DNA from: Zygnema cylindricum
Lineage: Eukaryota; Streptophyta; Zygnematophyceae; Zygnematales; Zygnemataceae
NCBI GenBank assembly: GCA_037447655.1
Contig: JBBHKE010001325.1
Coordinates: 124,001 to 188,000 of the forward strand
Length of the DNA: 64,000 bases
Reading direction: 5' to 3'
The position numbers and the translations under genes were made by a program. Below are positions 8,824 through 64,000 of the stretch, piece by piece. The notes under the pieces are model-generated. The model made no database searches. It was not told the DNA's origin and was given only the letters and a program-made list of their open reading frames with translations. Each line of letters opens with the position of its first letter. Position 1 is the stretch's first letter.

Positions 8824-9041
8824 CATCGGTATCGCTATTAGGGTTAATGTTTCTTTTTGCCACTTAAAACATATTTTCTCCGTACACACTTGTCAGAATC
8901 TAGATTTGACGGTTGATATTGAAAGGTAAGATTCTCAGCTTCCGATTAGCGGTCTCAAACCGAGAATCCGACAAATGTGTACGGGGAAAAGATGTTTTAT
9001 GTGGCAAAAAAATGTATTAACACTAATAGTGATACACCGTG
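8824..9041. mobile_element. Foldback MITE, uninterrupted copy (218 bp)
   Basis: Nearly the whole unit is an inverted repeat: CATCGGTATCGCTATTAG at the left pairs with the right end, and the CTCCGTACACACTTGTC arm has its complement near 8965-8985. TA flanks both ends (8822-8823, 9042-9043), as for mariner/Stowaway-type elements. Two further copies of the same length, with insertions, lie at 11829 and 13027. Confidence 0.75.
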
Positions 9042-15839: not shown

Positions 15840-16592
15840 TGTAGAAATAAAAGGTTATTTTAAGTAATTTCTAGGTTTTGTAAAATGCAGAAAAGAAGCA
15901 GAGGCAGTCTACCTCTAACTCCTCTCTCCAACTCCCACACTTGTCGCAGTCACTGATAGTTGGAGAGGGAGATAGAGCCATGGCCGCCTATGCTAACCCG
16001 ACAAGGAAATACATTAGAGTGGTAGTTTTACAGAAATAGTGATTGACGGACCCGGGATTTGAACCTGGTACTTGCCATCCGTCAAAGCAACCGTCAGCCA
16101 GTAGCCTTAGCTAATTAGACTAAAATCAAGGTTATACGATATATGGTTTGATAATTATATAAATACTTTTACATAGGCTATTTCATTTAACGAGATATTT
16201 TGGACATATATACAGTTTGTGTAGTACGGCGTACAAAACATTCGAAACGAATACCGCGCTCTTTGTTTCGAAGGCGAAACAAATATCGCGCAACTATTTA
16301 TGACAACTACGATTGAAATCCGGCTTAATCGGACGACCGTGAAGCATGTCGAGATCGCGGAATAGGTTTTCGGCGGTTTGCGGTCAACGTCATATCGATT
16401 GACACGTGGCACAATCATGTTGGATTACAACATCTCTGGGGATTACAGGAACAAATCCAAAAATGACATGTGTCAATTTGTTGGCCATGTCGTACAATGG
16501 TCGTACAGAAAGTACACCGGCACCTGTACCTTTCTATTTCTATACGACACAGTATTATGATTGGTGCCGTACTGCAGTAGATAGGGTTTGTA
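15840..16592 (+). repeat. 5' LTR, truncated
   Basis: It matches the first 750 bp of the 3' LTR; the LTR tail, primer-binding site and start of gag are lost in one deletion joining GGGTTTGTA to CGGCATTCATG. An antisense T-arm-like motif lies at 16054-16067. Confidence 0.85.
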
Positions 16593-20842: not shown

Positions 20843-21879
20843 TGTAGAAATTAAAGGTTAATTTAGTATTTTCTAGGTTTTGTAAAATGCAAAAAAGAAG
20901 CAGAGGCAGTCTGCCTCTAACTCCTCTCTCCAGCTCCCACACTTGTCGCAGTCACTAAAAGTTGGAGAGGGAGATAGAGCCATGGGCGCCAATGCTACCC
21001 CGACGGGGAAATACATTAGAGTGGTAGGTTTACAAAAATATTGATTAACGGACCCGGTATTTGAACCTGATACCTGCCGTCCGCCAAAGCAACCGGAAGC
21101 CGGTAGCCTTAGCTAATTAGACTAAAATCAAGGTTTTACGATATAGGCTTTGATAATTATATAAATACTTTTACGTAGGCTATTTCATTTAACGGGATAT
21201 TTTGGACATAGGCATAGTTTGTGTAGTAAGGCGTACGGAACATTTGAAACGAATACCGCGCACTTTGTTTCGAGGTCGAAACAAATATCGCGCAACTATT
21301 TATGACGACAACGATTGGAATCCGGCTTAATCGGACGACCGTGAAGCATGCTCACATCGCGGAATATGTTTTCGGTTGTTTGAAGTCGACGTCACATCGA
21401 TTGACACGTGACACAATCATATTGGTTTGCAACATCTGCGGGGATTACAGGATCGAATCCAAAAATGTCATGTGTCGACTTGTTGGCCATGTCGTACAAT
21501 GGCCGTACATAAAGTACACCGGCACCTGTACCTTTCTTTACGACACAGTATTCTGATTGGTGCCGTACTGCATTCGATAGAGTTTGTAGAGAGAGATAGG
21601 ACTTAGAAAAAATTGATAGATTTGACCCTCTCTCCCACAAAAATTCAATACAAAAGGTCAATTTTGACCCTCCATAACTTACTGCTCAAGGGAACAAATT
21701 CAAAGATTCTTTTTGCTATCGACTCACAGGAGTCTTGCCTTCACAACGGTGAAGGTGGTCAAAAATTTTGTCTGCCACGGTGGCAGTTATACTTGCTGAA
21801 ACACAAAGGGGTCAGGGTTATCCTAGAGGCTTCGTGTGAGCTGCCAACTTTGAGGACTTATGTAGGTCTCAGAGTTGCA
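20843..21879 (+). repeat. 3' LTR (1037 bp)
   Basis: Starts TGTAGAAATTAAAGG after a purine-rich AAAATAAAGGGAG, ends CAGAGTTGCA. Antisense T-arm-like motif at 21052-21070. Confidence 0.9.
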
Positions 21880-22288: not shown

Positions 22289-22371
22289 TGTTAGATTTCC
22301 TAGAATTCCGGGATTCGGCATGTCCACACTTAGGAAAATTGAGCCGGCCAGGGTTCGAACCTGGGACCTTT
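22289..22371 (-). repeat. TRIM LTR fragment fused to the 5' LTR end
   Basis: These 83 bp are the reverse complement of the last part of the TRIM LTR at 33529-33757 (GGGATTCGGCATGTCC, T-arm CCAGG-TTCGAAC). It begins exactly at the TSD and runs straight into AATATTTGAGTATTTT of the host LTR. The 3' LTR begins TGTTAATATTTG instead, so the two LTRs differ only at this head. Confidence 0.85.
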
Positions 22372-23550
22372 TAATATTTGAGTATTTTCTAGGTCTGTAT
22401 TAGAATAGAAAAAGAGTTGAGGCAGTCTGCCTCTCACTCCCCTTCTCCAAGCCCCCACACTTGCTGTAGTCACTGAAGGCTGGAAAGGGAGCTAGAGCCA
22501 TGGCTACCTAAACTCTCTAGAGAAGACAGGAAGTGAATTAGGTAGATTTAACAAAATATACTTGACGGACCCAGGTATTGAACCTGGAACCTGCCGTCCG
22601 GCAAGTAGGAGTAGCCGTTGCCTTTAACCGTTAAACGTAGAACTAGTGTTACATTACATTAGGTTTGATTACATTATAAATTGTTACGCGTAGACTAAAT
22701 CGTTTAACGGGAAATAGATTCTTAGTACATAGATACCGTTTTAATATAGTACGGAGTACAGTACGGATACGAAACGGATACCGCGCATTTGTTTCGATAG
22801 CGAAACAAATATCGCGCGTCGAATTTCAGCGGCTAAGATTATAGCCGGTTTTTGATCGGACGGCCGCGATAGGTGCCGCGATCACGGAACATGTACTTTT
22901 GGCGTTTTTGAGCCATCGCCACTTCATGTGACACGTGGCGCAACAATGTTGGATTGCGGCGACTCCGGAGATTGCGGGAACGAATCCGTCTATGACACGT
23001 GTCGACAATTTGGCCATGTTGTACAATGGCCGTACAGAAAGTACACCGGCACCTGTACTTTTCTGTACGACACAGTAATTTGATTGGTGCCGTACTTCAG
23101 TAGATAGAGTTTTAGAGGGGAAATAGGACTTAGAAAATTTTGGGTATGTAGCTCCCTCTCCAGAGAGCACCTTGTATAAATGGCAAACTTTGGCGAGCCA
23201 TAACTATCAATTTACTTTACCATTTTCAGTGATTCTTTTTGCTGCGGACTCAGAGGAGTCCAGGCTACACAGAGGTGTAGTCCGTCTGAGTTTTTGTCTG
23301 CCAGGGTGGCTGCATTTATAAGGGAAAGTCAAAGTGGGTGAATGTGTCCAAATCTCATATTTTAACTTTGCATTCTGTGGTGGAACTGAGCACACAGAAA
23401 GTGTTATTTCACAGGGGTGAATCTATATTGGGATTGTGACTGTCAAGGGGTCAGTCATTTGGGTTTATATTAACTTGGAGTCGGCACTATCTAGATTAGC
23501 TTCTTTTGGATCTGCATACTCTGAGGGCCAATGGAGGTCTTAGAGTCTCA
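22289..23550 (+). repeat. 5' LTR of sister gag-only element (chimeric start)
   Basis: Apart from the first 83 bp it is near-identical to 25454-26635. Antisense T-arm-like motif at 22571-22587 with perfect stem CCAGG/CCTGG. Confidence 0.9.
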
Positions 23551-26635: not shown

Positions 26636-27660
26636 ATTTCCACCACATAATGTAAAGTTAGAATATGAGTTTTGGACACATTTACCCACTTTGACTTTCC
26701 CTTAGAAATGCTGCCACTCTAGCAAGAAAAAACTCTGACCAACAACACTTTTATGTAGCTTGGACTCCCCTGAGTCCGTAGCAAAAAGAATCAGTGAAAA
26801 TGGTCCACTGAATGAGTAGTAATTAAATGGCAAAGTTTGCCCATTTCTATAGATGCTCTCTAGGAGAGAGGTGACTACCTGGCAAAATTATTCTAAGTCC
26901 TAAAACCCCTCTCTAAGCTCTCTAGTATTGAGGTACGGTCTAATCGTAAGAGTGTACCGTACAAAAAAGTACAGCCACCGTCGTACTTTCTATACGGTCA
27001 ATGTGCGACATCGCCATAATGTGACATTTGTCACATCCGGAATTATCATCTTGCGTTTCGGAAATCTCGCAATCCTCCTGGATCGTGCCACGTGTCATTC
27101 AAAGTGGCGGTGCTTGAAAACGTGAAGTCGCCCACTCCAGAATCCTGGCTCGCACCACGGCCGTTCGATTAAGACCGACATTTGAAATTGGTCGTCTAAA
27201 TAATTGCGCCATATTTGTTTCACATATGAAAAAAATGCGCGTTATCCGTTTCGAGAAAACCCGTAGTCACCACAATACAAACTGTTTCTATGTCTTACTA
27301 TTCCGTTAAATGAATTAGTCTAACTATTTATGTTTATATATTTACCGTACCCTATATATTTTAGCATAGGTCTTAGACTACACGATAAAGCTACCGGCTA
27401 CCTAATTCTTGATGGACGGCAAGTACTAGGATCAAATCTTGGGTCTGTCAAGGCAGTTTTGGTAAACCTACCAAAAACTAAAGCCTGTCTCTCTTTGTAG
27501 GTTGCATGGGCAGCCATGGCTCTAGCTGTCTCTCCAACCTTCAGTGACTGCGACAAGTGTGGGGGTTTGGAGAGTGGAGCGAGAGGCAGGCTGCTTTCGC
27601 TGACTTCCTCTTTATAAAATTTCCCTTTATTCAGACCTAGAAAATACATACATTTCAACA
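26636..27660 (-). repeat. Main part of the outer element's 3' LTR
   Basis: It matches 43078-44097 (ATTTCCACCACA..., ending TTTCAACA). The first five bases are the TSD copy of the sister insertion. T-arm-like motif at 27427-27440, here in forward sense because the element is reversed. Confidence 0.88.
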
Positions 27661-28037: not shown

Positions 28038-29071
28038 TGTAGAAATTAAAGTTTATTTTAGTATTTTCTAGGTTTTGTAAAATGCAGAAAAGAAGTAGAG
28101 GCAGTTTGCCTCTAACTCCTCTCTCTAGCTCCCACACTTGTCGCAGTCACTGAAAGTTAGAGAAGGAGATAGAGCCATGGCCGCCAATGCTATCCCGACG
28201 GAAACAAATGTTAGGTTAGTAGATTTTTACAAAATAAACTTGGCGGGCAAATGATTTGAACCTCATACCTGCCGTCCGCCAAAGAAGCCGGCAACCGGTA
28301 GCCTTAGCCAACTAGTCTTACACAGAGATATATGATATAGGGTTTCATAGTTATTTAAATGTTAACACGTCGGCTATCTTCATTCAACGGGATATTTAGA
28401 CATCGATACAGTTTGTAATGTATGGCGTACGACACATCCGAAATGGATACCGCGCATTTTGTTATGAAGGCAAAACAAATATTGTGCAAGTATTTATGAC
28501 GGCCACGATTGTAATCCGGCTTAATCGGACGGCCACGAAGCATGCCGAGATCGCGCAATAGGTTTTTGGCGGTTTGCGGTCGACGTCAGATCAATCGCCA
28601 AATGACACAATCACATTGGATTACGACATCTCCGGGGTTATAGGAACGAATCCAAAAATGACATGTGTCGACTTTTTGGCCATGTCGTACAATGGCCGTA
28701 CATAAAGTATAACGGCACCTGTACCTTTATGTACGACACACTATTATGATTGGTACCCTACTTTAGTAGATAGAGTTTTAGAGAGAGATAGGACTTAGAA
28801 AAATTTGATAGATTGGACCCTCTCTCCCAAAGAGCTTTTGTACAAATGGTCAACTTTGATCCTTCATAACTTACTGTTCAAGGGATCAAATAAAGAGATT
28901 ATTTTTGCTATCTATTCACAAGAGTCTTGCCTTTATTGAGGTGTAGGTCGTCAGAGTTTTTTTCAGCCAGGGTGGCAGTTATTCTTGTTGAAACACAAAA
29001 GGGTCAGGGTTATCCTAGAGGCTTCGTGTGAGCTGCCTACTTTGAGATCCTATAGAGGTATCAGAGTTGCA
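28038..29071 (+). repeat. 5' LTR (1034 bp)
   Basis: TGTAGAAATTAAAG to GAGTTGCA. Antisense T-arm-like motif at 28252-28264, outer stem TTGGCGG/CCGCCAA. Confidence 0.9.
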
Positions 29072-29087
29072 GGTTATGGGCCCACCA
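29072..29087 (+). other. Primer-binding site, anticodon half of tRNA-iMet
   Basis: GGTTATGGGCCCACCA is the exact complement of the anticodon stem-loop region of plant initiator tRNA-Met (as I remember that sequence) and starts directly after the LTR end CA. The gag ATG (29076) is inside it. Confidence 0.75.
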
Positions 29088-32000
29088 TCTAGGGTGTCCA
29101 TATTCAATGGAGCTGGATTCATATACTCGGAAAGTATGATGACAGGAGCTCTATGTGAGAAACAGTTTTGGGGAATAGTGAGTGGACTGGTGAGGCGTCC
29201 ATCCAGTCTAGGGATACCTCCAGGGTTTACAGGAGGCATATTCACTAGAGATGCAGATCCATCTTCAACGGAGGAGACAAAGCAAGGAGAGGTGGTGGAC
29301 AAAGGAAAGGAGAATGAGACGGTCACACCAATAGAAACCGGTTCGGCATTCATGTCACCTATTCCGAGGAACGAGGAGAATGATATCGATGCCTGGAACT
29401 ACAACAATATGGCGGCTAAGCACTTCATCCTCCGCCATCTTACTCAAGGGCTTGCATCTCCCCATTTGCAGGTAGAGAGGGCATCCGATCTTTGATTGGC
29501 TCTTATAGAGATGTACCGAAGTGGTACGATTTAGCAACAACAGTTGGCTGATCAAAAATTTTAGGAGTATATATACAAAGGGGGGAAGATGTTCGATTTT
29601 CGCAATGAGCTTGCTACACTATTCATGGAACTAGAGAGTGATGGAAAAATATTTAGTGATAAGAAAAAGGTTAACTGTTTACTGATGAAGTTACCCAAGG
29701 AGTTCGAGAACATAGTCAACTGTGTGCAGGACTTGGCGGACTCAAGGTGGATTTGGAATTCAGTGGTAGGGATGATTCTCGTTGGAGAGAAAACAATTGA
29801 GATCAGAAGGGGAGGAAAGAGTGGGCAAGCTTTAGGAGATGGGACCGATTGGAGAAACAATGATTCCAGGAAACAGGCTGAAAATTATCGAGGGGAGGGG
29901 CAAAATAATCAGACTTAGGAGTTTGGACCAAGGACTCACAAGGATTTGTGCCATTTTTGTAAGAAATCGGGGAACTAAAAGTTTGAATGCACTAAGTTAA
30001 CTGAGCTGCGGTTAAACGAGGGGCAGACTGGTGGACCCTCAAGAGGAAAGAAAAAGGCCCTTGTGACACAGGTACATGAGTCGGAATCCGAGGACGAGGA
30101 CGATGAACTCCAATTAGATGAGGAGTTGGAAGCGATAAACGAGGTCGAAATTCCACAAAATCAAAATTGTGCTTTCGGTGGATTGAAAGGTGAAGCAGGC
30201 TGGATTGTAGATATAGGTGCATCCATGCACATGTGTAAAGATAAACACATGTTCACTAAGATAAGAAAGATTCCCACCGTAGAGATAGAGTACGCGGATG
30301 GGAGGATAGTCACTACTACTCTTGTAGGATCGGTAGATCTAAAAGTGTTAGTAGAACGAAGGACATCTCTAGTTACATTCTCCGATGTATTGTGTATTCC
30401 GGAGCTAAACAAAAACCTCATCTATACGTCTGTATTAGATGATAAGGGTTTTGATACTAGCACTAGGAAAGGAGAATTTACTGCTAGTTTTGAGGAGGAA
30501 GTTTATTTCACTGCTGAAAAAGGTAGCCAATGGATGTTTAGGCTGATTTTAAGCAATGAAAAAAAGAAACTTTACTATGCGGGTGTTTATGATATAATGT
30601 TGTGGCATAAGAGGCTTGGGCATGTGAATCTAGATAAGTTAAGAGAGATGAAAATGATGGGAGTAGTGGAAGGGATTTAATTCGGTGAAAGTGAGAATGT
30701 ATGTGATTGTAGTGGATGTGCTCAAGGTAAAGCACACAGGTTACCTTTCCCAAAAACTGCCACCTATAAGGGAGAAAAAATTCTAGATTTACTACACACA
30801 GATATTTGGTGGCTGGCTAGAGTGCCATCACCTGGGGGGAAGAGATTTATGATTACTATCACCGATGATTGGTCTCGATATTCCAGGGTGTATTTTTTGA
30901 GAAATAAGTCAAAGGCTCAGGAATGTTTTATACAATATAAAGCATGGAGTGAAAAACTCCATGAAACCTCAATCAAGAGAATAAGGAGTGACAATGGTGG
31001 AGAGTATACCTCTAACCAGTTTGAGGATTTTTTGAGAGAAGATGGAGTGCAACAACAAAAAACTGTTCCTGAAAATCTTGAGCAAAATGGTGTAGCTAAA
31101 AGATTAAATAGAACATTGAGTGATAGTGCTACGAGTATGTTGTCAGATAAGAAGATAAGAAAGAAGTTTTGGGCTGAAGCAATGAACTGTGCAAATTATC
31201 TCAAGAATAGAGTTCTTACTTCAGCAGTAAAAGGCCAAATACCGTATGAGAGATGGACAGGCCGAAAACCAGATATTTCACACTTAAAGGTTTTCAGTAG
31301 TCAAGTGTTTAGTTTAGACACAGATCGGTCAAACTGAAAGTTAAACCCAAAAGAAAAACCATCATATCTACTAGGATATGATAAAGATGTAAAAGGATAA
31401 AGAGTCTTTGATCTCAAAAGAGAGGATATTATCCTAGTGAAGCATCTAGAGGTTATAAATGAAGAAAAATCTATATATAAGACAATCAGAATCAAATTTG
31501 AGTCAGAAAATTCTGATGACTTTGAGCTTCCTAACTATCCAAGATTGAGCACCCTAAAAGATTTCAAGAAGATGATGATCTTGCAGGTACAGATCAGATC
31601 GAGAAGGACCCAAATGTGGAACCCATAGTATTAACTCCAACTGAAGCGGAAGACGTGGTGGAAATCGACCCGGAATCAAGGGATAGGGGAGAAGTAGAAA
31701 CTGTTCGGAAAAATCCAAGAGAGCCATCTATTCCGGCAATCGAGTTTGAGGGAGGAAGAAAAAGCAGCAAAAAACTGCAAGAGAGGCAAGTTAACAATAA
31801 GGTAACCAAACTGTCTCACCCTGATGAACCTCAAACTTATAATGAGGCAATGACTTGTCCTGAAAGAAACTGGTGGAAGACATACATTAATGAGGAGATG
31901 GCCTCAATTATGGCGGCCGATACATGGGAATTGGTGGATTGTCCTATTGACAAGAAGCCAATTGGGTGTAAGTGGGTATTTAAGCTGAAATTCAACCCGG

Positions 32001-33412
32001 ATAACACCATTGAGCGCTACAAGGCTCGGTTAGTGGCGAAGGGATTTACCCAGAAAGAGGGAATTGACTACGAGGAGACTTTTGCCCCGGTCGTCATGTT
32101 TCCTTCAGTTCGGATACTTCTCAGTATAGCGGCAACAGAAGACATAGAAGTGCATCAGATGGACATCAAGACGACCTTCCTACATGGAGAGTTGGAAGAG
32201 GAAATTTTTATGCGACAGCCCGAAGGATTTGTGGAGCAAGGGGAGGAAAGCAAGGTATGCCGATTGATCAAATTTTTCTATGGGCTGAAACAGGCGCCTC
32301 GGCAATGGAACAAGAAGCTCGATGAGTTTCTTACAAGTTTGGGATATAATTGGATCAGCTCAGATCACTCAATTTATTTGTTTGAAGATGAGGAAAGAAT
32401 TATTTTTATTGAAATTTATGTTGATGATTTGTTTGTTTTAACTAAATCCATGGATAAAATAAATAAGTTGAAAAATGATTTAAAAGGAAGATTTGAGATG
32501 AATGATATGGGAGAAGCGAGGTATATTTTTGGAATTCAGGTAGAGAGAGACAGAGACAGAAAGATAATAAGATTAACTCAAAAAGAGGTCATTGGAAACA
32601 TCTTAGAAAAATTCCAAATGGACAAGGCTAAAAGTTGTACCACTCCTATGGAATTAAAGAAGGGAAATGAGGGGAGTGAGGAAGAGGGAGTTATAATCTT
32701 AGATGGTGAGGTAGGCTCGGAAGAGAAAATATTTATGCAGACCATCCCTTATAAACAAGTAGTGGGCAGCCTAATAAATTTCATGAATTATACCCGTCCG
32801 GACATAGCCGCAGCTGTAGGAGTACTAAGTAGGAGTCTGAATGCTCCCACTAAGAAAGATTGGGTGGCAGCTAAGAGAGTCCTTAGATATCTCATAGGAA
32901 CTAGGGATCTATGGTTGCATTTGGGTGGGAACAATACTGACATCACCACTTGGAGTGATGCCACCTATGGGGATGCTCCTATGAGAATATGCACATCTAG
33001 ATATGTATTGTATGTGGGTGATGGGGCTTGCTGCTGGAGCAGCAAGCAGCAAAAAGGTCATTGCTTAGTCCACCATAGAGGCTAAGTACATGGCTTCTAG
33101 CTCTGCTGTAAAAGAATTAATGTGGGTCAAGTCTTTGCTTGGTGAGCTTGGTCATCTTAAGAGTGGTGTCCAAAAAGTGTTTTGTGATAATCAGGCTGCC
33201 ATTTCCATTTCTGCCAATCCTCAACATCATTTAAAGCCAAACACATGGACATTAGACTTAGCTTTGTTAGGGAGAAAGTAGAAAACAAGATAATCAGTTT
33301 GGAGTATAAACTAAATAGTGAAATGGTAGTAGATATGATGACTAAACGTGTTCCTTCCCTTAAACTAATTTTTCTGCCTGAGAAGTGTGGTCTTAAAATA
33401 AAGAGTGACTAG
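29076..33412 (+). pseudogene. Copia gag-pol pseudogene (second copy)
   Basis: Order: Gag (29076-29495, then 29589-29918 after stops); zinc knuckle with its histidine changed (CKKSGN then stop, near 29975); protease with D-I-G instead of DSG near 30210; integrase from about 30600 (HKRLGH, CSGC) to 31340, with SDNGGEYTSNQF intact. RT lies in one long open frame at 31616-33085, with YVDD at 32417-32428; RNase H is broken near 33085 (extra bases in the CAGCAAGCAGCAAAAAGG run) and ends near 33412. RT is the best preserved part. The element is disabled by stops in gag and between domains. Confidence 0.9.
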
Positions 33413-33528
33413 AAAATAAGGGGAGTGTAGAAATTAAAGGTTATTTTAGTATTTTCTAGGTTTTGTAAAATGCACAAAAGAAGCAGAGGCAGTCTGCCTT
33501 TAACTCCTCTCTCCAGCTCCCACACTTG

Positions 33529-33757
33529 TGTTCGATTGGCACGTGAAGCCTGTCCAATACGGGGTAGAATATGGAAATATCTATACTCGAGCCGCTCGTA
33601 ATAAATGGGTACGGACCCGCCAGTCTCAACATCGAGCTGGTGGCACAGTGGTAGTGCGTTCGCAGCTGAAGTGAAAGGTCCCAGGTTCGAACCCTGGCCG
33701 GCTCAATTTTCCCAAGTGTGGGACATGCCGAATCCCGGATTTCTAGGAAATCTAACA
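33529..33757 (+). repeat. TRIM 5' LTR
   Basis: 229 bp. Contains a tRNA-like gene at 33634-33704. Confidence 0.93.
33634..33704 (+). tRNA. tRNA-like gene inside TRIM 5' LTR
   Basis: A complete 71-nt cloverleaf can be drawn. Acceptor GAGCTGG with CCGGCTC (one T-G pair); D-stem GCAC/GTGC with loop AGTGGTA; anticodon stem TTCGC/GTGAA (one G-T pair) with a 7-nt loop; 5-nt variable loop; T-arm CCAGG-TTCGAAC-CCTGG; A at the discriminator position. A-box (TGGCACAGTGG) and B-box (GGTTCGAACCC) are good, and TTTT follows at 33707-33710 as a Pol III stop. Odd: position 33 is G where tRNAs have U; the nominal anticodon is CTG. I infer a tRNA-derived Pol III unit, not a proven working tRNA. Confidence 0.65.
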
Positions 33758-33772
33758 TGGTATCAGAGCCAG
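33758..33772 (+). other. TRIM primer-binding site (tRNA-iMet 3' end)
   Basis: TGGTATCAGAGCCAG is complementary to the 3' end of initiator tRNA-Met and directly follows the LTR. Confidence 0.9.
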
Positions 33773-33803
33773 CGGGATTGCGGATGGTTTGACCGGCTTT
33801 CCC

Positions 33804-33814
33804 GTGAGGGGGGG
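33804..33814 (+). other. TRIM polypurine tract
   Basis: GTGAGGGGGGG immediately before the 3' LTR. Confidence 0.85.
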
Positions 33815-34043
33815 TGTTCGATTGGCACGTGAAGCCGGTCCAATACGGGGTAGAATATGGAAATATCTATACTCGAGCCGCTCGTAATAAATGGGTACGG
33901 ACCCGCCAGTCTCAACATCGAGCTGGTGGCACAGTGGTAGTGCGTTCGCAGCTGAAGTGAAAGGTCCCAGGTTCGAACCCTGGCCGGCTCAATTTTCCCA
34001 AGTGTGGGACATGCCGAATCCCGGATTTCTAGGAAATCTAACA
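33815..34043 (+). repeat. TRIM 3' LTR
   Basis: 229 bp; one difference from the 5' LTR (G for T at the 24th base). Confidence 0.93.
33920..33990 (+). tRNA. tRNA-like gene inside TRIM 3' LTR
   Basis: Identical to 33634-33704, with the TTTT run at 33993-33996. If transcribed from its internal promoter, the RNA would be the small tRNA-like unit and not the element's full-length RNA. Confidence 0.65.
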
Positions 34044-34973
34044 ACTTGTCGCAGTCACTTAAAGTTAGAGAGGGAGATAAAGCCATGGCCGCCTATGCTA
34101 TCCCAACGGGGACAGATAATAGGTTAGTTTTTTTTTACAAAATTATCTTGGCGGGCCCAAGATTTGAACCTGATACCTGCCGTCCGCCAAAGTAGCCGGT
34201 AGCCTTAGCCTACTAGTCTTAACTAGAGATATATGATATAGGGTTTGATAGTTATTTAAATGTTAACACGTCGGCTATCTTCATTCAACGGGATATTTAG
34301 ACATCGATACAGTTTGTAATGTATGGCGTACGGCACATCTGAAACGGATACCGCGCATTTTGTTTCGAAGGCGAAACAAATATTGCGCAAGTATTTATGA
34401 CGGCCACGATTGTAACCCGACTTAATCGGACGGCCACGAAGCATGCTGAGATCGCGCAATAGGTATTTGGCGGTTTGCGGTCGACGTCACATCAATCGCC
34501 ATATTGCACAATCACATTGGATTACGGCATCTGCGAGGATTTCGGGAACGAATCCAAAAATGACATGTGTCGACTTTTTGGCCATGTTGTACAATGGCCG
34601 TACTTAAAGTACAACGGCACCTGTACCTTTATGTACGATACACTATTATGATTGGTGCCGTACTTCAATAGATAGAGTTTTAGAGAGAGATATGACTTTG
34701 AAAAATTTGATAGATTGGACCCACTCTCCAAGAGACCTTCTGTACAAAAGGTCAACTTTGACCCTTCATAACTTACTGCTCAGATGAGCAAATTCAAAGA
34801 TTCTTTTTGCTATCAACTCAAGGGAGTCTTGCCTTTACAGAGGTGTTGGTGGTAAGAGTTCTTATCAGCCAGGGTGGCAGTTATTCTTGCTGAAACACAA
34901 AAGGGTCAGGGTTATCCTAGAGGCTTCGTGTGAGCTGCCTATTCTGAGGTCCTATGGAGGTCTCACAGTTGCA

Positions 34974-35668: not shown

Positions 35669-36716
35669 TGTAGAAATTAATGATTTTTAAGTATTTTCTA
35701 GTTCTGAATAGAAATAAAGAAGCCGAGGCAGTCTACCTCTAACTTCTCTCTCCAACTCTCAAACTTGTCGCAGTCACTGAGAAATTGGAGAGGAAGCTAG
35801 AGCCATGGCTACCTAGGCTATCCTCAGGTTTACGGGAAATTTATATTAGTCTAGGGATTAATTACTAAAAGGTATGTGCTGTCGACAGGATTTGATCCTG
35901 GTACTTGACGGCCGTTAGAGAGTAAATAGCCGGTAGCCTTAGCCATTAAGTCTACAAGTAGTCTTACATAGTATATAGTACGATAATGATTTAAACATGT
36001 ACACGCAAGATAAATCATTTAACTATAACTGTTAACGGGATACATAGATATGGTAGTGTAAAAGTACGAATTGCGGTACAGATAAGAAATCAATACCGCA
36101 CATTGATTTCGTAAGCGAAACAAATACCGCGCATGCATTTATTACGGCTACGATCAAATGCGAGTTTAACCGGACAGCCGGAATTAGCGCCGAGATCGCG
36201 GAAGGAGAATTCGGCGGTTTGTGGGCATCGCCACATCGGATGACACGTGGCGATGTAACATTGGAGCGCGGCATCTCCGAGGATTAAAGGAGCGAATCCG
36301 GATATTCCACGTGTGGACATTTAGGCCATGTCGTACAATGTCCGTACATAAAGTACACCGGCAGCTGTACTTTTGCGTACGAAACTGTATTCTGATTGGT
36401 TCCCTACATTAGTAGATAGAGTCTGTGAGAGAGATAGGACTTAGAAAAATTAGAAGATAGGACCCTCTCTCCCAGAAAGCTTGTGTACAAAAGGTCAACT
36501 TTGACCCTCTATAACTTACTGCTCAGGGGAGCAAATTCAGAGATTCATTTTGCTATCGACTCAGGGGAGTCTTACCTTCACAGGGGTGAAGGTGGTCAGA
36601 GTTTTTGTCTGCCAAGGTGGCAGTTATTTTTGCTTAAACACAAAGGGGTCAGGATTATCCTAGAGGCTTCTTGGAAGCTGTCCACTCTGAGGACTTATGC
36701 AGGTCTCAGAGTTTCT
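35669..36716 (+). repeat. 5' LTR (1048 bp)
   Basis: TGTAGAAATTAATG to GAGTTTCT (terminal A changed to T). Antisense T-arm-like motif at 35886-35900. Confidence 0.92.
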
Positions 36717-41050: not shown

Positions 41051-42098
41051 TGTAGAAATTAATGGTTTTTAAGTATTTTCTAGGTCTGAATAGAAATAAA
41101 GAAGCCGAGGCTGTCTACCTCTAACTTCTCTCTCCAACTCTCAAACTTGTCGCAGTCACTGAGAAATTGGAGAGGAAGCTAGAGCCATGGCTACCTAGGC
41201 TATCCTCAGGTTTACGGGAAATTTATATTAGTCTAGGGATTAATTACTAAAAGGTATGTGCCGGCGACAGGATTTGATCCTGGTACCTGCCGGCCGTTAC
41301 AGAGATGATAGCCGGTAGCCTTAGCCGTTAAGTCTAGAAGTAGTCTTACATAGTATATAGTACGATAATGATTTAAACATGTACACGTAGGATAAATCAT
41401 TTAACTATAACTGTTAACGGGATACATAGATATGGTAGTGTAAAAGTACGAATTGCGGTACGGATAAGAAATCAATACAGCGCATTGATTTCGTAAGCGA
41501 AACAAATACCGGGCATGTAATTATTACGGCTACGATCAAATGCGAGTTTAATCGGACGGCCAGAATTAGCGTCGAGATCGCGGAAGGAGAATTCGGCGGT
41601 TTGTGGGCATCGCCACATCGGATGACACGTGGCGATGTAACATTGGAGCACGGCATCTCCGAGGATTAAAGGAGCGAATCCGGATATTCCACGTGTGGAC
41701 ATTTAGGCCATGTCGTACAATGTCCGTACATAAAGTACACCGGCAGCTGTACTTTTGCGTACGGAAATGTATTCTGATTGGTTCCGTACATCAGTAGATA
41801 GAGTCTGTGAGAGAGATAGGACTTAGAAAAATTAGAAGATAGGACCCTCTCTCCCAAAGAGCTTGTGTACAAAAGGTCAACTTTGACCCTCTATAACTTA
41901 CTGCTCAGGGGAGCAAATTCAGAGATTCTTTTTGCTATCGACTCAGGGGAGTCTTGCCTTCATTGGGGTGAAGGTGGTCAGAGTTTTTGTCTGCCAGGGT
42001 GGCAGTTATTTTTGGTTAAACACAAAGGGGTCAGGATTATCCTAGAGGCTTCTTGGAAGCTGTCCACTCTGAGGACTTATGGAGGTCTCGGAGTTTCA
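41051..42098 (+). repeat. 3' LTR (1048 bp)
   Basis: Follows polypurine AAAATAAGGGGAG (41038-41050). Ends GAGTTTCA. Antisense T-arm-like motif at 41268-41282. Confidence 0.92.
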
Positions 42099-42914: not shown

Positions 42915-44097
42915 TGAAACTCTGACCTCCATTGGTTCTCAGAGTAGGCAGCTCTCAAAAAAGCTTATCTAGTTAAGGCCGACTCCAAGTTGATACAAAC
43001 CCAAATGATTGACCCTTTGACGATCAAAACCCCAATACAACTTCACCCTTGTGAAATAAGACTTTATGTGTGCTCATTTCCACCACAGAATGTAAAGTAA
43101 GAATATGAGTTTTGGACACATTCACCCACTTTGACTTTCCCTTAGAAATACAGCCACCCTAGCAAGCAGAAACTCTGACCGACAACACCCTTGTGTAGCA
43201 TGAACTCCCCTGAGTCCGCAGCAAAAAGAATCAGTGAAAATGGTCCACTGAGTGAGTAGTAATTAAATGGCAAAGTTTGCCTATTTATATAGATGCTCTC
43301 TGGGAGAGAGGTGACTACCTGGCAAAATTATTCTTAGTCCTAAAACCCCTCTCTAAGCTCCCTAGTACTGAGGTACGGTCTAATCGTAAGATTGTACCGT
43401 ACAAGAAAGTACAAGCACCGTCGTTCTTTCTGTACGGTCAATGTACGACATCGCCATAATGTGACATTTGTCACATCCGAAATTATCATTTTGCGTTTCG
43501 GAAATCCCGCAATCCTCGCGGATCCTGTCACGTGTCATTTGGCGTGGCGGTGCCTGAAAACGCGAAGTCGCCCACTCCAGAATCCCGGCTCGCACCACGG
43601 CCGTCGATTAAGACCGACATTTGAAATTGGTCGTCTAAATAATTGCGCCATATTTGTTTCACATTTGAAACAAATGCGCGATATCCGTTTTGAGATAACC
43701 CGTAGTCCGTACAATACAATGTTTCTATGTCTTACTATTCTGTTAAATGAATTAGTCTAACTATTTATGTTTATATTTTTATCGTACCCTATATATTCTA
43801 GCATAAGTCTTAGACTACACGATAAAGCTACCGGCTACCTAATTCTTGACGGACGGCAGGTATTAGGATCAAATTATGGGTCCGTCAAGACAGTTTTGGT
43901 AAACCTACCAAAAACTACAGCCTGTCTCTCTTTATAGGTAGCATGGGGAGCCATGGCTCTAACTGTCTCTCCAACCTTCAGTGACTGCGACAAGTGTGGG
44001 GGTTTGGAGAGTGGAGCGAGAGGCAGGCTGCTTTTGCTGACTTCCTCTTTATTAATTTTCCTTTTTTTCAGACCTAGAAAATACATACATTTCAACA
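42915..44097 (-). repeat. 5' LTR of the outer gag-only element (1183 bp)
   Basis: Minus-strand ends TGTTGAAATGTATG...GAGTTTCA; the complement of GGTTATGGGCCCACCA at 42899-42914 follows. T-arm-like motif at 43863-43878. Confidence 0.9.
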
Positions 44098-46832: not shown

Positions 46833-49800
46833 AACGACACGTCAACCCTCCCCCCAATTTTCCTTTGGAATCCACTTCTTTACCCTCCCCCCTTCTTCCC
46901 TATTTGCCTTTTACCCCTCCTATACCCCTATACCACTATTTCAATCATCTTCCCTTTCCCACGCCCCCCCATTTTGGTCCCTTCCCCCATATCCCCCCTT
47001 TCTCTCCGTTTCATCCTTTCTCCCAACCTACCCATGGTTCCGTCCCACTACCATTTCCACCATTAATTTCCCATGGTTTCCTTTCCTCCTTCCCATTTCC
47101 CCCTTCTGCTCCCTCTATCACGTCCCATGCTTCTCCCTCTCATTCAATGACCATGCCCGGCCGTGCATCCTCGCCTCTTCTCCTTCGTTCACCTCCCCCA
47201 CCTAAACCTCGCACACAAGCCTCAACACGGATAGAATGTACCGGGTGTCATAACCATTTCGCGGCCGGTGCCGGTATTGCCTGACATACAAAGAGTTGTC
47301 AACAATTTTTGGCCGTGAGTGACCCTTTCTTTTAGTACACTTTCTTCCACAACACTCCCGTCCGGACCTACGAGCGAACATAAGGCATCTGTACGCGATT
47401 TAGACATGCTCGGAGCTTATGATTCGGGGGCCCCCGTCGGCGGTTATACACGCAGATTCTGATGGCTGTGCGGATTATCCTACATGACGCCCTCCACCTT
47501 CCTTTGTCCCGTATTTGTTCGGATCCCGTGGATGTTGGGCCTTGGCACCTCCTTTTTCATGATCTCACTTTGGGTTCTAGTCTTACTTGGCCGTGGCGGT
47601 GGTAGTGGGGCTTCAGAAACTATGGCTCGATGCCAACAATTTCTTCGAGGCGATTGCGAGTGCTTCTTTTACACCACGTCGTATATCTCAGACTTCTGAT
47701 GTGCCATCCTCCTATCGTCGTGCGGTACATTTGGGCCGGGTTGGTGAGCTCTCTTGAGCGATTCAGGCCCTCCGGCCATCTAATCTTGCTCCTCCGTCTG
47801 CTGTGACTGTTGAGATCCTCCGAGCTCTTCATCCGCCAGCTTCTACCCCTCAGTCCCCCTCTATTCACGCTTTCGAGCCGACATAGTGTTTTCTCTTGGA
47901 TCGAGACTCTTTAATTAAAGCCCTTACGACTTCTCCACATCTTTCAGGGGGTTCTTCGCGCACTGTTTATTAGTTGTTTCGAGAAGATTTGCCTCCGGAA
48001 TCAAGTGCTCATGGCTTTGATATGTTTTTTCGAGTATGTTCCCTTATTGCGGCTGGCAATGTCCCTTATCTTATTTGTGATCTCCTCACAGCCTGTTTCG
48101 AGAAGATTTGCCTCCGGAATCAAGTGCTCAGGGCTTTGATATGTTTTTTCGAGTATGTTCCCTTATTGCGGCTGGCAATGTCCCTTATCTTATTTGTGAT
48201 CTCCTCACAGCCTCCCGCCTCGTAGATGACACCAAACCCAATGGGGGAATCCGCCCTATTGCAGTGGGCGAGGTATTGTACCGATTGGTGGCCTGTGCAA
48301 TCTGCATCTCGCTCCAGGCCGCTTTCCATGATTATTTCTCTCCTCATCAGTTCGGAGTGGTAACCCGGGGGGTTTGTGAGGCAGTGGTCCACGGTATCCG
48401 GGCTTTGTTAGATGCCTATCCGGATTGGTCATTCAAATGGATGTTTCTAATGCCTTTAATACAGTGGATTGGAATGTCATTTTTGCGGAGCTTATGGCTA
48501 CACCTTCCCCGATTGTCCAGATATTTCCTTTTGTGAGAGCCTTTTATTCTCTGAGCAATAGCCTCTCTTTCTCCACTGATGATGATTTGGTCCCATTTTC
48601 CTGCACGACTGACACTTGTCACGGGGATCCTCTTGGGGGGGCTTTGTTTGCCCTAGCCCATTACCGCGCTCTTTGAGCTTCCGCAGCTGCTTACCCTTCT
48701 TACTTCTTCCCTTTAGTTGCGGATGACACACGCATTATTGGTCCTTCGGACCAAGCTATACCGGCCTATAACTTTTTCAAGGCTCGCTTGGCCGAACTCA
48801 ATCTTCGGTCCAACCCTCTAAGTGTGTTGTTTGGTCCCCAAGTCCTATTCCTCCTCCCTTCACCCCCCCTCCTAGTTTTCAGACTCCTCCTCCTTGCCAA
48901 GGCATTCGTGTGTTGGGTTGCCCGCTTGGGTCCGATCCATATGTCACGAAATTCCTCAATTTCACTCTTCAGACAGATTTGTCCCACGTGGACGACCTTC
49001 CTCACCTTTCTGATCCCCAAGTGGCCTTTGCTCTTCTAACACGGTGTTTCCAGCACTGGCCCTCCTACCTTACTCGCACTTCCCCTCCCACCCCATCCTT
49101 TGTGTCCTCACTTTCTGCTTTCGATGGTCGTCTTATGGATGTCCTCCACACTTTGTTGGGCCGTGGAGCTTTTGATCGCGAGTCTGTGCGCGCGGCACGC
49201 ATCCCAGCCTCTCGTCCTGTCTCGGCTGGCGGTTTGGGTTTACTCTTGACGGCGCGTGTTGCTCCTGCCGCCTATTTGGGAAGTTGGTGCCTTGTTGCTT
49301 CCACTGTTGTCTCTTGTTTTCTGGCTGGGGACACTCCTATTCTTGCGGCCGTGGTTCCTCGTGTTTCAGATGGTGAGCTCGCCTTCCAACGGTCCCTTTT
49401 GGATGCATCACGTTTTCTTAATCCGGTTGCTATCGAGGACATGCTGATTTTTTCCACTCCAGTTACGACATCAGTTGCGCGTGTTCAAGAATCCATTTCT
49501 GATCGGGTTGTCGCCGCTATTAAATCTCAGCTTCTCGAGGCGCTTCCTTCCAATTCTTCACGTGCACGCTTCTTGTCTTGTGGCGGACCTGGCTCTGGAG
49601 CTTGGCTATTGGCTGTCCCTATCTTATCCACTCTTCGTTTCACCCTGGCTCAGTTCACGACGGCCTTTAGGTTCCAGCTTGGTCTCCCTCACCCACCTTT
49701 GCTTGGCTCACTTGTTTGCTCCTGTGGCCACGTTCTCGAGCCCGACAGGGTCCATGTGCTTCGTTGCTCCCACGGGGGCGAGTTGATTCAGGCCTATGAC

Positions 49801-50235
49801 ATGATTCGAGACACCATCGCTACTATCGCTTCTGAGGGGGGATTTTTTGTTCGTCGGGAGGTCTCTCACATTATTCCTTCGCGTCGGATTGACCTTATAT
49901 TACTTGATGGTGCGCGTCGTACATTTGGTGACATTGTTTTGGCGAACACTACCTCAACTACAGTCGTCAACCAAGCGGCTCGACATGTGGGAGTGGCCGC
50001 CCGTGACGCTGCTAAAAGGAGCGTGATTATGCTCGTCGCGACACTATGGATGGCTTCATTCCGATGGCAGTCGAGATATTTGGTTGTTTAGGTGTGGCTT
50101 TGGACGAGTTTTTCCGTACTTGTGGTATGCGCTCGTTCAAGAAGCGGGGACCTGGGAGCCCTTCTGTTTCAGTCCTTACTTCTTTTTTTTGTCAACGTTT
50201 TTCAGTGGCCGGCTTCTTTATTACTTCGATCGTCT
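46833..50235 (+). pseudogene. Non-LTR retrotransposon with restriction-like endonuclease, copy 1
   Basis: Single-ORF retrotransposon of the RLE (R2-like) branch, broken. After a C-rich leader, a zinc-finger-like CTGC...HTKSC sits at 47238-47300. RT remains run from 47970 to 48830: KPNGGIRPIAVGEVLYRL, MDVSNAFNTV (48437), GDPLGGALFALA, ADD (48719-48727). A 119-bp tandem duplication and a shift near 48425 break it. A long frame at 48910-50091 holds the thumb-like region, a Cys-Cys-His-Cys motif (CSCGH from 49717) and an endonuclease motif: Asp in RRID (49891), twelve residues, then GD (49930). This fits the R/K-P-D...D pattern of R2-type endonucleases. It ends in an assembly gap. There is no apurinic-type endonuclease. 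Confidence 0.8.
47976..48213 (+). repeat. 119-bp tandem duplication within RT
   Basis: Units 47976-48094 and 48095-48213 differ by one base (CATGGC versus CAGGGC). 119 is not divisible by three. Confidence 0.9.
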
Positions 50236-50245
50236 NNNNNNNNNN
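50236..50245. other. Assembly gap (10 N)
   Basis: The gap falls inside the C-terminal region of retrotransposon copy 1; copy 2 shows what kind of sequence would follow (from 53360). Confidence 1.
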
Positions 50246-50490
50246 TTGCCAGCCAGTGCCAAAGCCAACTGGCAAACGCTGGAGACGAGGAGCTATATAG
50301 CATGGCCCTGGTTGTATTTACTAGCGCTATATATAGCGCTACGTATTATAAAATATTTAAATTATACCCTTAACGATTAGCGTCTCTGCTAAAAACAACG
50401 CGCGTCCATCAACAGTCTTTAACATGTAAGCTTCATGTTAAAACATGTTCGATGCATGGAAATTAAAGTTTAGACTGCCAGTTAGGGAGC
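50246..50490. other. Short intergenic stretch after the gap
   Basis: Local palindromes such as TAGCGCTATATATAGCGCTA (50321-50341); nothing else recognised. Confidence 0.5.
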
Positions 50491-50744
50491 TTGTTGTCGC
50501 AAACGGTCAACCGAAACCGTGACCGACCGTTAACCGACCGCCCGCGCCGGATCCGGAACGGATTCGGTTGCCAAATTTTGGGGGTCGGGCGGTTACGGTC
50601 GGTTGATTCACCAGGAAAAAAAGAACGGTCGGTTACGGTCGGTCAACCAAAAAACCAAAAAAAATGAAAATTTTGTACTGTCCCTATAATCCAACATTCT
50701 TATACTTTGTAATCTTTGGCATCGTGGAAGTACGTGACATCATG

Positions 50745-50962
50745 ATTAGCGTCGCAAATCTGACACGGTACTGTAGTAAGCTATTTATTTCACAAATCAA
50801 AGGGAACGCGACAAAGAATCGCAAATTCTGACACGGTAGTACACTATTCATTTCGAAAATCTTAGGGAACGCGAAAAAGCGTCGCAAATCTGACACGTTA
50901 GTACAATATTCATTTCGCAAATCTTAGCCAACGCGACAAAGCGTCGCAAATCTGACACAGTA
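50745..50962. repeat. Minisatellite within the hAT-like element
   Basis: About four units of 60-70 bp, each with GTCGCAAATCTGACACGGTA, ATTCATTTCGCAAATC and AACGCGAC. One unit is seen at 44204-44270 in the other copy. Confidence 0.75.
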
Positions 50963-51179
50963 CACCGCCAATCGTTATTAGCGTGTAAGTTTTTTTAGCG
51001 TATACGAATAATTAGCATGGTTTACGCTAATTGGGAATTTGAAAAATTTCGAAGAAATCGTCTATTCTAATTAGGAATTAGGGTTTTTTTTTAAATAGTG
51101 TGGATAATTCTATTTGAGTATAATAAAAAAAAAAGCGGGACGGAATTAGCGTACACAACGCTAATAACGATTGGCGGTA
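50963..51179. mobile_element. Small TA-flanked MITE (217 bp)
   Basis: Inverted ends CACCGCCAATCGTTATTAGC and complement, TA at 50961-50962 and 51180-51181. It splits a minisatellite unit; the empty form GACACGGTAGTACAC is next door. Confidence 0.8.
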
Positions 51180-51463
51180 TAGTACACTATTCATTTCGCA
51201 AATCTTAGGGAACGCGACAAATCGTAATTATTGGCTTATTCCGTCGTACATTGATTAATTTTGTACTTTTCGGTTACAGGCGGGCACGGTTAGTCGCAAA
51301 AAATCAAGATTCGGTTAATTTTTTTTTTCCTAAACGACGGTCGGTTAACGGTTAACAATTTTGGAGCGTGACAAAACTCGGTCGGGCGTTGGTTACTCAC
51401 ATTTTGAAAAACCAAAAAACGGTCGATTTCGGGTATGATTTTTTTTGACTTTTGCGACCTCTG

Positions 51464-51704
51464 TCGAGAAGTCTGTTAGATCGATGTTCGATATTAAATA
51501 TTGCAATTATCGCGATATGAATTTACTCGATACCGAATACTACTGTAAAGGACAGCAATTGAATACCCGATAATCGATATATCGCTTCAACATATAAACA
51601 TGCTCGATATTGCGATGTTTATGGATATCGCAATAATTTGATATATTTTTATCGCGATTTATTGAACTGACGTTAAGTCAATACCACAGTACTTACTGGA
51701 GTAT
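51464..51704. other. Fragments of AGTGTTG-family elements
   Basis: Contains ATTATCGCGATATGAATTTA and CCCGATAATCGATATATCGC, both phrases of the element at 45835-46596, in a rearranged order. Confidence 0.5.
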
Positions 51705-53875
51705 CACCGCGAATCGCTATTAGGGTTATTCACGCTAATTCAGCGCCCCTGGGGCCCTTTGTTTGCCCTGGCCCATTACCGCGCCCTCTGAGCTTCATCA
51801 GTTGCTTACCTTTCTTGCCTCTTCCTTTCTGTTGCGGATGACACACACATTATTGGTCCTTCAGACCAAGTTATATCGGCCTATAACTATTTCAAGGCTC
51901 GCTTGGCCGAACTCAATCTTTCGGTCCAACCATCTAAGTGTGTTGTTTGGTCCCCACGTCCTATTCCTCTTTCTTTCACTCCCCCTTATGGTTTTCAGAC
52001 TCCTCCTACCGAAGGCATTCGGGTGTTGGGTTGCCCGGTTGGTTCCGATCCCTACGTCACGAAATTCCTAGATTCCGCTCTTCAAACAGATTTCTCCCAC
52101 GTGGACGACCTTCCTCACCTTCCTGATCCCCTGGTGGCCTTTGCTCTTCTGACACGCTGTTTCCCGGCCCGACCCTCCTACCTTACTCACACTTCCCCTC
52201 CCAACCCATCCTTTGTGTCCTCACTTTCCGCATTTGATGATCGACTTATGGATGTCCTCCACACTTTGTTGGGCCGTGGAGCTTTTGATCGCGAAACTGG
52301 GCCCGCGGCACGTATCCAAGCCTCTCTTCCAGTCTCGGCCGGCGGTTTGGGTTTACTCTCGACGGCGCGTGTTGCTCCAACCGCCTATTTGGGAAGTTGG
52401 TGCCTTGTTGCTTCCACTATTGTCTCTGGTTTTGTGGCTGGGGACACTCCTATTCTTTCGGCCGTGGTTCGTTGTGTTTAGATGGTGAGCTTGCCTTCCA
52501 ACGGTCTCTTTTGGATGCATCACGTTCTCTTAATCCGTCTACTATCGAGGACATGCCGATGTTTCCCACTCTTGTTACGACATCAGTTGCCCGTGTTCAA
52601 GAATCCATTTCTGATCGGGTTGTCGCCGCTATTAAATCCCAGCTTCTTGAGGCGCCTCCTTCCAATTCTTCGCGTGCACGCTTCCTGTCTTGTGGCGGAC
52701 CTGGCTCTGGAGCTTGGCTATTGGCTGTCCCAATCTTATCCACTCTTCGTTTCACCCCGGCTCAGTTCACGACGGCCCTTAGGTTCCGGCTTGGCCTCCC
52801 TCACCCACCTTTGCTTGGCTCACTTGTTTGCTCCTGTGGCCACGTTCTCGAGCCCGACGGGGTCCATTTGCTTCGTTGCTCCCACGGGGGCGAGTTAATT
52901 CATGCGCACGACACGATTCGAGACACCATCGCTACTATCGCTTCTGAGGGGGGATTTTCTGTTCGCCGGGAGGTCTCTCACATTATTCCTTCGCGTCGGA
53001 TTGATCTTGTATTACTTGATGGTGCGCGTCGTACATTTGGTGACATTGTTGTGGCGAACCCTACCTCAACTACAGTCGTCAACCAAGCGGCTCGGCATGT
53101 GGGAGTGGCCGCCCGTGACGCGGCTAAAAGGAAGGAGCGTGATTATGCCCATCGCGATGCTATGGATGGCTTCATTCCGATGGCGGTCGAGATATTTGGT
53201 TGTTTGGGTGTGGCTTTGGATGAGTTTTTCCGTACTTGTGGTCGGCGCTCGTTTGAGAGGCGGGGACCTGGGTGCCCTTCTATTTCAGTCCTTACTTCTT
53301 TTTTTCGTCAACGTTTTTCCGTGGCCCTACAACGGGTGTTGGCTTCTATATTACATCGATCGTCTATTACCGTTATGGATCAAAGGCGTGTTCCGGAACT
53401 TCCTCCTCGTGCTCCTCCGGGATTCGGGGACCTACGTGGTTGCTTTCGGTAGATTTTTTAGTTATGTTGGGGGTCCTTTTTTTTTTTTTTTTTTTTTACG
53501 TGTTAGATTTTTCCTTTGATGTTTTGCTTGCTGGGTTTTGCTTTTTTGGGTAATTTCGATTTCCTTGCCATCCTTTCGTATTTTCGTCGGTTTTGCCTTG
53601 ATTTTCTTTTTTGTTTATTCCCTTGTCATGTGGATCTTTCAGTTTTAGAAATGCTACTTCATTTTGTTCCTATGGACTCAGATGGTTTACCATCGCGCTT
53701 TTTAATAAAGTCGCCCCCCATATCACAAATTCTTAATAGAGTGATTAAAAAAACCGTAATAAACAAATTAGAGTGACTGATTTCCTTGAAAATCCCCAAA
53801 TTCCCAATTAGCGTTAATCACACTAATTGTTTTTTAACACTAAATATTTGTTAGCGCTAATAGCGATTCGCGGTG
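51705..53875. mobile_element. TIR element enclosing retrotransposon copy 2
   Basis: Left end CACCGCGAATCGCTATTAGG, right end complement CTAATAGCGATTCGCGGTG followed by TA; the left flank reads TAT. About 45 bp on the left and 100-200 bp on the right belong to this element; the rest is the retrotransposon fragment. Confidence 0.6.
51753..53455 (+). pseudogene. Non-LTR retrotransposon (RLE type), copy 2, 5'-truncated
   Basis: Begins abruptly at TTTGTTTGCCCTGGCCC within RT and keeps ADDT (51834 on). The Cys-Cys-His-Cys motif and the endonuclease motif (Asp codons at 53002 and 53042, twelve residues apart) lie in an open frame at 52397-53452. A one-base loss at 52479 creates a stop relative to copy 1. 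The C-terminus is complete here, ending near 53452 with a proline-rich PELPPRAPPGFGD. 5' truncation is the usual outcome of target-primed reverse transcription. A T-run and AATAAAG at 53704 may belong to its 3' untranslated end. Confidence 0.8.
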
Positions 53876-63576: not shown

Positions 63577-64000
63577 TGTTGATATTTGAGTATTTTCTAG
63601 GTCTTTTTTAGGAAAGAAAATGAGTAGAGGCAGTCTGCCTCTGACTCCCTTTTCCAAGCCCCCACACTTGTTGTAGTCACTGAAGGCTGGTTAGGGCGTT
63701 AGAGCTATGGCTGCCTAAGCTCTTCAGAGAGACAAAAGTAGATAAAGGAAGTTTTACTAAAAAGGCGTTTGACGAACCAAGGATTTGATCCTGGTATCTA
63801 TCGTCCGTCAACCAACCCGTAGCAGTTCGCTCTATCCGTTAAGTCAACGATTAGAGTTAAGGTATATAAGGTTTGATAAATATTTATACAGTTATACGTA
63901 GAGATTTTCATTTAACTAGGTTAACAACATTTAGAACATAAAACCAGCTGCGAAACATATGGTACGGACATTTGTTTCGACGGCCTAGATACAATTTGGA
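63577..64000 (+). repeat. Start of another Copia-type LTR (runs off the window)
   Basis: TGTTGATATTTGAGTATTTT begins as the gag-only family LTR does (25454). The AGGCAGTCTGCCTCTGACTC and TTGTAGTCACTGAAGGCTGG phrases are shared. Antisense T-arm-like motif at 63779-63793. Confidence 0.8.

Follow-up and report, generated by a model that had tools for sequence, protein, structure and literature searches.

A Helenus-like miniature LTR element with tRNA-like units in both LTRs in the zygnematophyte Zygnema cylindricum

Described TRIMs with Pol III promoters

The closest described counterparts of the element reported here are the Helenus elements, TRIMs (miniature LTR elements) that carry tRNA-derived sequence in their LTRs together with a primer-binding site (PBS) and a polypurine tract (PPT) (Kojima 2024, PMC10886601). 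The same paper proposes the name TRIMp3 for TRIMs carrying Pol III promoters, and it describes well over 100 Helenus families from fungi and animals, 113 of them from rust fungi, plus a single plant family. Its Table 1 of hosts names fungi, animals and, among green plants, only Selaginella moellendorffii, and the published elements are given as 311-1263 bp long with target-site duplications (TSDs) of 4-5 bp, 5 bp in the fungal and plant families. Most fungal Helenus families are described with a primer site that corresponds to the anticodon region of initiator tRNA-Met (iMet), and a minority with one that corresponds to the iMet 3' end (PMC10886601). Among TRIMp3 elements, Pol III transcription is stated there to have been validated for Cassandra only, in which it reportedly begins within the 5S sequence of the 5' LTR and ends within its counterpart in the 3' LTR (PMC10886601); tandem Cassandra arrays are described as giving multi-unit transcripts, presumably by read-through of the LTRs (PMC7215508).

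We analysed a 64-kb stretch of Z. cylindricum DNA (hereafter the window) that contains a 515-bp TRIM at 33529-34043 (+). In all four structural features tested, the element agrees with Helenus, the match being to the published description and not to consensus sequences: it is a TRIM of <1000 bp without recognised proteins, its length falling inside the published range; both LTRs carry tRNA-derived sequence with A and B boxes; a PBS follows the 5' LTR and a PPT precedes the 3' LTR; and the TSD (ACTTG) has the 5 bp given for fungal and plant Helenus (PMC10886601). The box B motif GGTTC is the same as in Helenus as published, whereas the box A core, TGGCA...TGG, departs at a single base from TRGCY...YGG, the form that most Helenus have. 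In Helenus-1_SMo, the sole published plant family, LTRs of 120 bp flank an interior of 85 bp, compared with 229 and 57 bp in the Zygnema element, which uses the iMet 3' end as primer like the minority of fungal families (PMC10886601).

The element shares with Cassandra a Pol III-type unit within the LTRs of a TRIM, as well as a PBS and a PPT, but its unit is tRNA-like where Cassandra LTRs carry 5S rRNA. An earlier note on this DNA had cast a TRIM with a tRNA-type unit as the counterpart of Cassandra and was right to do so, each LTR having such a unit; its remark that it knew of no described TRIM of this type is overtaken by the 2024 publication of Helenus (PMC10886601). The Ajax TRIM of nemerteans, which has the same TRIMp3 architecture, is described as carrying a partial 5S unit in place of the tRNA, and retrozymes are described as small non-autonomous LTR elements that likewise have structured RNA in their LTRs, in their case a hammerhead ribozyme. 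Searches of the TRIM LTR with Rfam gave no match to 5S rRNA and none to a ribozyme, either at gathering score or in a lax scan to E 5. A tRNA-type SINE, which would have a 5' tRNA head, no LTRs and a non-LTR mover, is ruled out by the LTRs, PBS, PPT and 5-bp TSD.

The kind of element is thus already described, and it is the zygnematophyte host group that looks new. Zygnematophytes are absent from the published Helenus Table 1 (PMC10886601), and neither this TRIM family nor a zygnematophyte host of such elements was found in print in open-licence PubMed Central, where the titles and abstract openings listed yielded no further report of tRNA-bearing TRIMs. The main text of an earlier TRIM survey, which covered 48 genomes of plants and algae, contains no word starting with tRNA (PMC4717578), and that of a brown-alga transposon survey contains no "tRNA" and has "trim" only in other senses (PMC12477816). 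If the assignment holds, the Helenus range now reaches what seems to be the group of algae most closely allied to land plants, their sister group, and, given a 2024 table with one plant species, a wide unnoticed distribution in plants or repeated origins become testable. TRIMs bearing tRNA sequence also inflate tRNA gene counts in annotation, an effect shown for Helenus-type elements in rust fungi (PMC10886601).

The element and its insertion into a Copia LTR

The two LTRs (33529-33757 and 33815-34043, both +) are direct repeats of 229 bp, each of the form TG...CA, that differ at a single site (LTR position 23, T/G). They enclose an interior of 57 bp (33758-33814, +), which opens immediately 3' of the 5' LTR with a PBS (33758-33772, +; core TGGTATCAGAGC) whose 15 nt are complementary to the 3' end of a plant iMet sequence. 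TGGTATCAGAGC is the usual plant iMet primer site. The PPT, GAGGGGGGG (33806-33814, +), closes the interior directly before the 3' LTR, and the remainder (33773-33805, +) contains no recognised coding sequence. Only one stop-to-stop frame of 120 aa or more overlaps the TRIM (33456-33866, -), and it had no Pfam match; nothing similar to the interior was found elsewhere in the 64-kb window. Copies of ACTTG flank the element at 33524-33528 and 34044-34048, forming a TSD recognised from the sequence and from empty sites.

The landing site is the 3' LTR of a Copia element (33426-34973, +), which the TRIM splits and which we delimited by comparison with the LTR at 28038-29071 and by an alignment of 10 Copia LTR copies; upstream of this interrupted LTR, a frame at 31535-33085 contains RVT_2. 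When the two flanks joined by one ACTTG were used as query, 10 matches were obtained besides the element's own site, and all 10 cross the joint. The TRIM insert is also absent from each of the nine other copies in the Copia LTR alignment, from which the tenth other copy, a fragment at 63583, was omitted. The TRIM insertion is proven by these empty sites. The dimensions of the element and its LTRs, the 5-bp TSD, the iMet primer site and the PPT are all as the earlier note had read them, as is the one-base LTR difference from which it had concluded a recent move. The Copia LTR at 28038 and the interrupted Copia LTR are 89.4% identical over 937 columns and, since the TRIM LTRs differ at 1 of 229 positions, the TRIM appears to have arrived much later than the divergence of those Copia copies, an order of events that involves no rate and gives no date.

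Part of a second TRIM LTR, corresponding to LTR positions 146-229, lies at 22289-22371 (-) and was identified by BLASTN, alignment and flank comparison, with 96.4% identity over 84 columns. It comprises the 3' half of the tRNA-like unit with the B box, the T4 run beyond it and the LTR end, while the A box lies outside it. All 32 bases of the tRNA part match, and three differences (two substitutions and one gap) fall in the other 52 columns, which is too few to conclude from. The partial copy is cut by a further Copia LTR that adjoins it at about 22372. Its 3' end adjoins GAAATGAGC; another Copia LTR copy reads an unbroken GGAAATGAGC at that point, so that the partial copy is apparently an independent insertion, likewise in a Copia LTR, and two more Copia LTR copies have GGAACTGAGC at the junction. 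The 64-kb window therefore holds one full TRIM and one partial LTR, both located in Copia LTRs. Exact patterns of 40 and 26 bases from the tRNA-like unit had no matches in a prokaryotic and a viral contig collection, respectively, results that are uninformative on algae.

The tRNA-like unit and its possible roles

Each LTR contains a tRNA-like unit of 72 nt, at 33634-33705 in the 5' LTR and 33920-33991 in the 3' LTR (both +). Both units were identified by ARAGORN and Rfam RF00005, and that of the 5' LTR also by its motifs, an A box region TGGCACAGTGG and a B box GGTTCGAAC. ARAGORN called tRNA-Gln(CTG) in each LTR and no tRNA in the rest of the 64 kb. The covariance search of the LTR that the earlier note had suggested gave 53.6 bits against RF00005 in both units (cut-off 29, E 9.9e-9), and a lax Rfam scan of the window found no additional tRNA. 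All 21 cloverleaf pairs are standard, two of them G-U. A run of four T (T4), a candidate Pol III terminator, starts 2 nt beyond the 3' end of the unit in each LTR (33707-33710 and 33993-33996, both +). The earlier note's account of a cloverleaf with all stems paired, A and B boxes and a T4 stands, but its lengths do not: it had given 71 nt for the cloverleaf and three bases to the T4, having omitted the discriminator base.

Chance is a poor explanation for the unit, with none of 5,000 dinucleotide-shuffled LTRs yielding an ARAGORN call in a test whose parsing of the output was verified on the real LTR. The cloverleaf was the minimum-energy fold in all three stretches containing the unit that were folded (z -0.66, -0.60 and 0.17). 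The stability of the fold is ordinary when set against its own shuffles, 48 of 200 of which fold equally well (z -0.66).

A tRNA anticodon loop usually has U at position 33 and a pyrimidine at 32. The loop of the unit reads AGCUGAA, which places A at 32 and G at 33; the G, which the earlier note had held against a working tRNA, is confirmed and is accompanied by the equally unusual A. Of 16 near-invariant tRNA positions, our own choice made after the fact and counted by hand, only 32 and 33 are lost, the two that lie in the anticodon loop; the other 14 are all retained. Judged by its bases, such a loop is unfit for decoding, which suggests that the unit, should it be maintained at all, serves as a promoter or an RNA fold and not as a tRNA. 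The combination of intact pairing and a dead anticodon loop makes this a clean case in which to ask whether selection acts on the promoter, the fold or both.

Upstream of the unit lie CAA at -7, AATAAA at -34 (LTR 72-77) and TATA at -52, with the TATA-like TATCTATA at LTR 50-57. The elements described for plant tRNA genes are an upstream TATA and CAA, the A and B boxes and a downstream poly(T) (PMC11700998). The CAA is weak evidence because, according to the same source, it occurs within 10 bases upstream of only ~36-45% of angiosperm tRNA genes (PMC11700998).

We consider it likely that the locus is a young insertion of a non-coding Helenus-type TRIM (the tRNA class of TRIMp3) that has a captured tRNA-like gene in its LTRs and would replicate through a Pol III-driven cycle. 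We count in favour of this reading the intact cloverleaf, the A and B boxes, the upstream CAA, the T4, the LTRs, the PBS, the PPT, the TSD and the empty sites. By analogy with Cassandra, Pol III would initiate in the 5' LTR at the CAA that precedes the tRNA-like unit by 7 bases, or close to it, pass the weak T4 of that LTR in a fraction of rounds and end at the T4 of the 3' LTR. The product would be an RNA of ~370 nt, both ends of which would share the tRNA-like segment (~80 nt) as the R region. Given the T4 in the 5' LTR, most transcripts would be tRNA-sized, and genomic RNA would come from read-through alone. The first strand would be primed at the PBS by iMet, the shared segment would permit strand transfer, and the second strand would be primed by the PPT.

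Integration would depend on the integrase of a Copia-type helper outside the window, which may act in trans to insert the copy with a 5-bp duplication. The helper would probably be of Copia type and share the iMet 3'-end primer site. A search of the window for a helper with a matching PBS found, on either strand, just one TGGTATCAGAGC, the TRIM's own. The Copia family of the window is judged an unlikely helper. The Copia copy with its 5' LTR at 28038 has an interior that starts with GGTTATGGGCCCACCA (29072-29087), 16 nt that match the anticodon region of iMet and not its 3' end, and the TRIM interior is unmatched in the window. This suggests half-tRNA priming in that Copia copy, as described for the majority of fungal Helenus (PMC10886601) and unlike the 3'-end primer site of the TRIM.

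Several observations count against the Pol III cycle. The T4 of the 5' LTR should stop a large share of Pol III short of a complete transcript, and a well-formed cloverleaf is liable to be cut by RNase P and RNase Z, by which the R regions would be lost. The fold is no stabler than its shuffles, the box A core is TGGCA in place of the TRGCY found in most Helenus, and one full copy and one partial LTR are the sole examples in the window. In addition, TATCTATA and AATAAA upstream of the unit would suit Pol II too. They could be the promoter and poly(A) signal of a conventional Pol II TRIM whose LTR carries a tRNA gene, or the head of a tRNA-type SINE, as an idle passenger, a reading that would also avoid the awkwardness of a T4 in the 5' LTR for a Pol III genomic RNA. 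We regard this alternative as unlikely. A passenger carried for long would not be expected to retain all of its pairs and both boxes when its anticodon loop has changed, and the unit accounts for 72 of the 229 LTR bases, with its CAA and T4 placed as is usual in plant tRNA genes.

The ARAGORN call and an Rfam score well above the cut-off would also fit a working tRNA gene (Gln-CTG) spread by the element, but this seems to us very improbable with G33 and A32 standing in place of the usual U33 and pyrimidine 32. Speaking for such a gene, a few fungal and bivalve Helenus families are described as able to encode a tRNA (PMC10886601). The window contains only a single full copy, as would be expected of a lone dead curiosity, whether a tRNA pseudogene in one LTR lineage that never amplified or an assembly artefact. 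We find this scarcely credible: both LTRs carry the unit, as would follow from one or more rounds of reverse transcription since its capture; the B-box half of the unit recurs in another insertion that is apparently independent; and the 5-bp TSD is exact, with all 10 other target copies crossing the joint.

Within the Pol III-driven cycle of a Helenus-type TRIM, the cloverleaf might be kept for more than its promoter, as an RNA part of retrotransposition. The fold with its dead anticodon would then serve as the R region, and tRNA-end processing, or protection by a tRNA-like cap, would set the ends of the genomic RNA. We hold this extension to be quite doubtful. An antisense, covarying tRNA-like hairpin in the host Copia LTRs would be a related theme.

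Antisense hairpins of the Copia LTRs and other features of the window

Copia LTR copies crowd the window at 15840-44038 and 63583-63721; they occur in both orientations, and some of them split others. A Copia reverse-transcriptase frame has a best identity of 48% among the 120 matches listed, which is uninformative on the host. On their minus strand, the Copia LTRs contain a truncated tRNA-like hairpin that consists of an acceptor-like stem and a T-arm, without D and anticodon arms, and that includes a B-box-like GGTTCAAATC or GGATCAAATC, or near variants of these. Such hairpins lie in LTR copies at 34145-34191, 28237-28287, 21042-21092, 16040-16090 and 22559-22607 (all -), with further copies at 35873-35922 and 41255-41304 (-) and at 27405-27454 and 43842-43891 (+).

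We tested the pairing of this hairpin on nine distinct copies, a tenth that is identical to one of them being omitted. Pairing is possible in 84.1% of cells compared with 78.4% in shuffles, and none of 500 shuffles reached 84.1%. Four of the 14 pairs are changed on both sides, a number reached by 22 of 500 shuffles, and six cells have two-sided changes, as in 1 of 500 shuffles. Neither any of the 500 shuffles nor any slid version equalled the covariation score. The test favours the structure in that it was derived from the same sequences, and the shuffles ignore the kinship of the copies. Rfam gave no tRNA match for the hairpin. The best Rfam hit for one copy was a sub-threshold mascRNA-menRNA (15.1 bits, cut-off 42.5, E 1.5), and another copy had no Rfam match.

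A coatomer beta gene occupies 57.4-61.2 kb (-). One of its exons searched by itself, under a length limit that shut out full-length coatomer proteins, had a clubmoss as its best named match (86%), a reading that was abandoned when a longer query and a tree pointed to zygnematophyte algae; for this query four exon pieces were joined. Among the best 120 of 1821 matches, two transcriptome proteins are 89% and 86% identical to it, followed by Mesotaenium (85%), Spirogloea (83%) and Closterium (80%); land plants in the same set comprise liverworts at 81-82%, ferns at 77-79% and seed plants at no more than 79%. Ranked by bit score, Lupinus comes first within these 120 (1633 bits, 76% identity) and is outside the tree. 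The rows for Mesotaenium, Spirogloea and Ginkgo carry names that we presume from gene-name prefixes. In a tree of 30 rows, 29 of them hand-picked relatives, the window sequence groups with the 89% relative (support 94/84) inside a ten-row group that includes Mesotaenium, Spirogloea and Closterium (94/90) and is separated from a land-plant group of 18 rows (99/95). By this tree the host is zygnematophyte-like.

Two further repeats were observed. A long inverted hairpin at 8849-9013 (-) resembles the plant MIR7993 precursor below threshold (47.4 bits, cut-off 100, E 9.2e-6) and may be a small inverted-repeat transposon. At 48081-53519 (+), repeated open frames appear by eye to be LINE-like reverse transcriptases.
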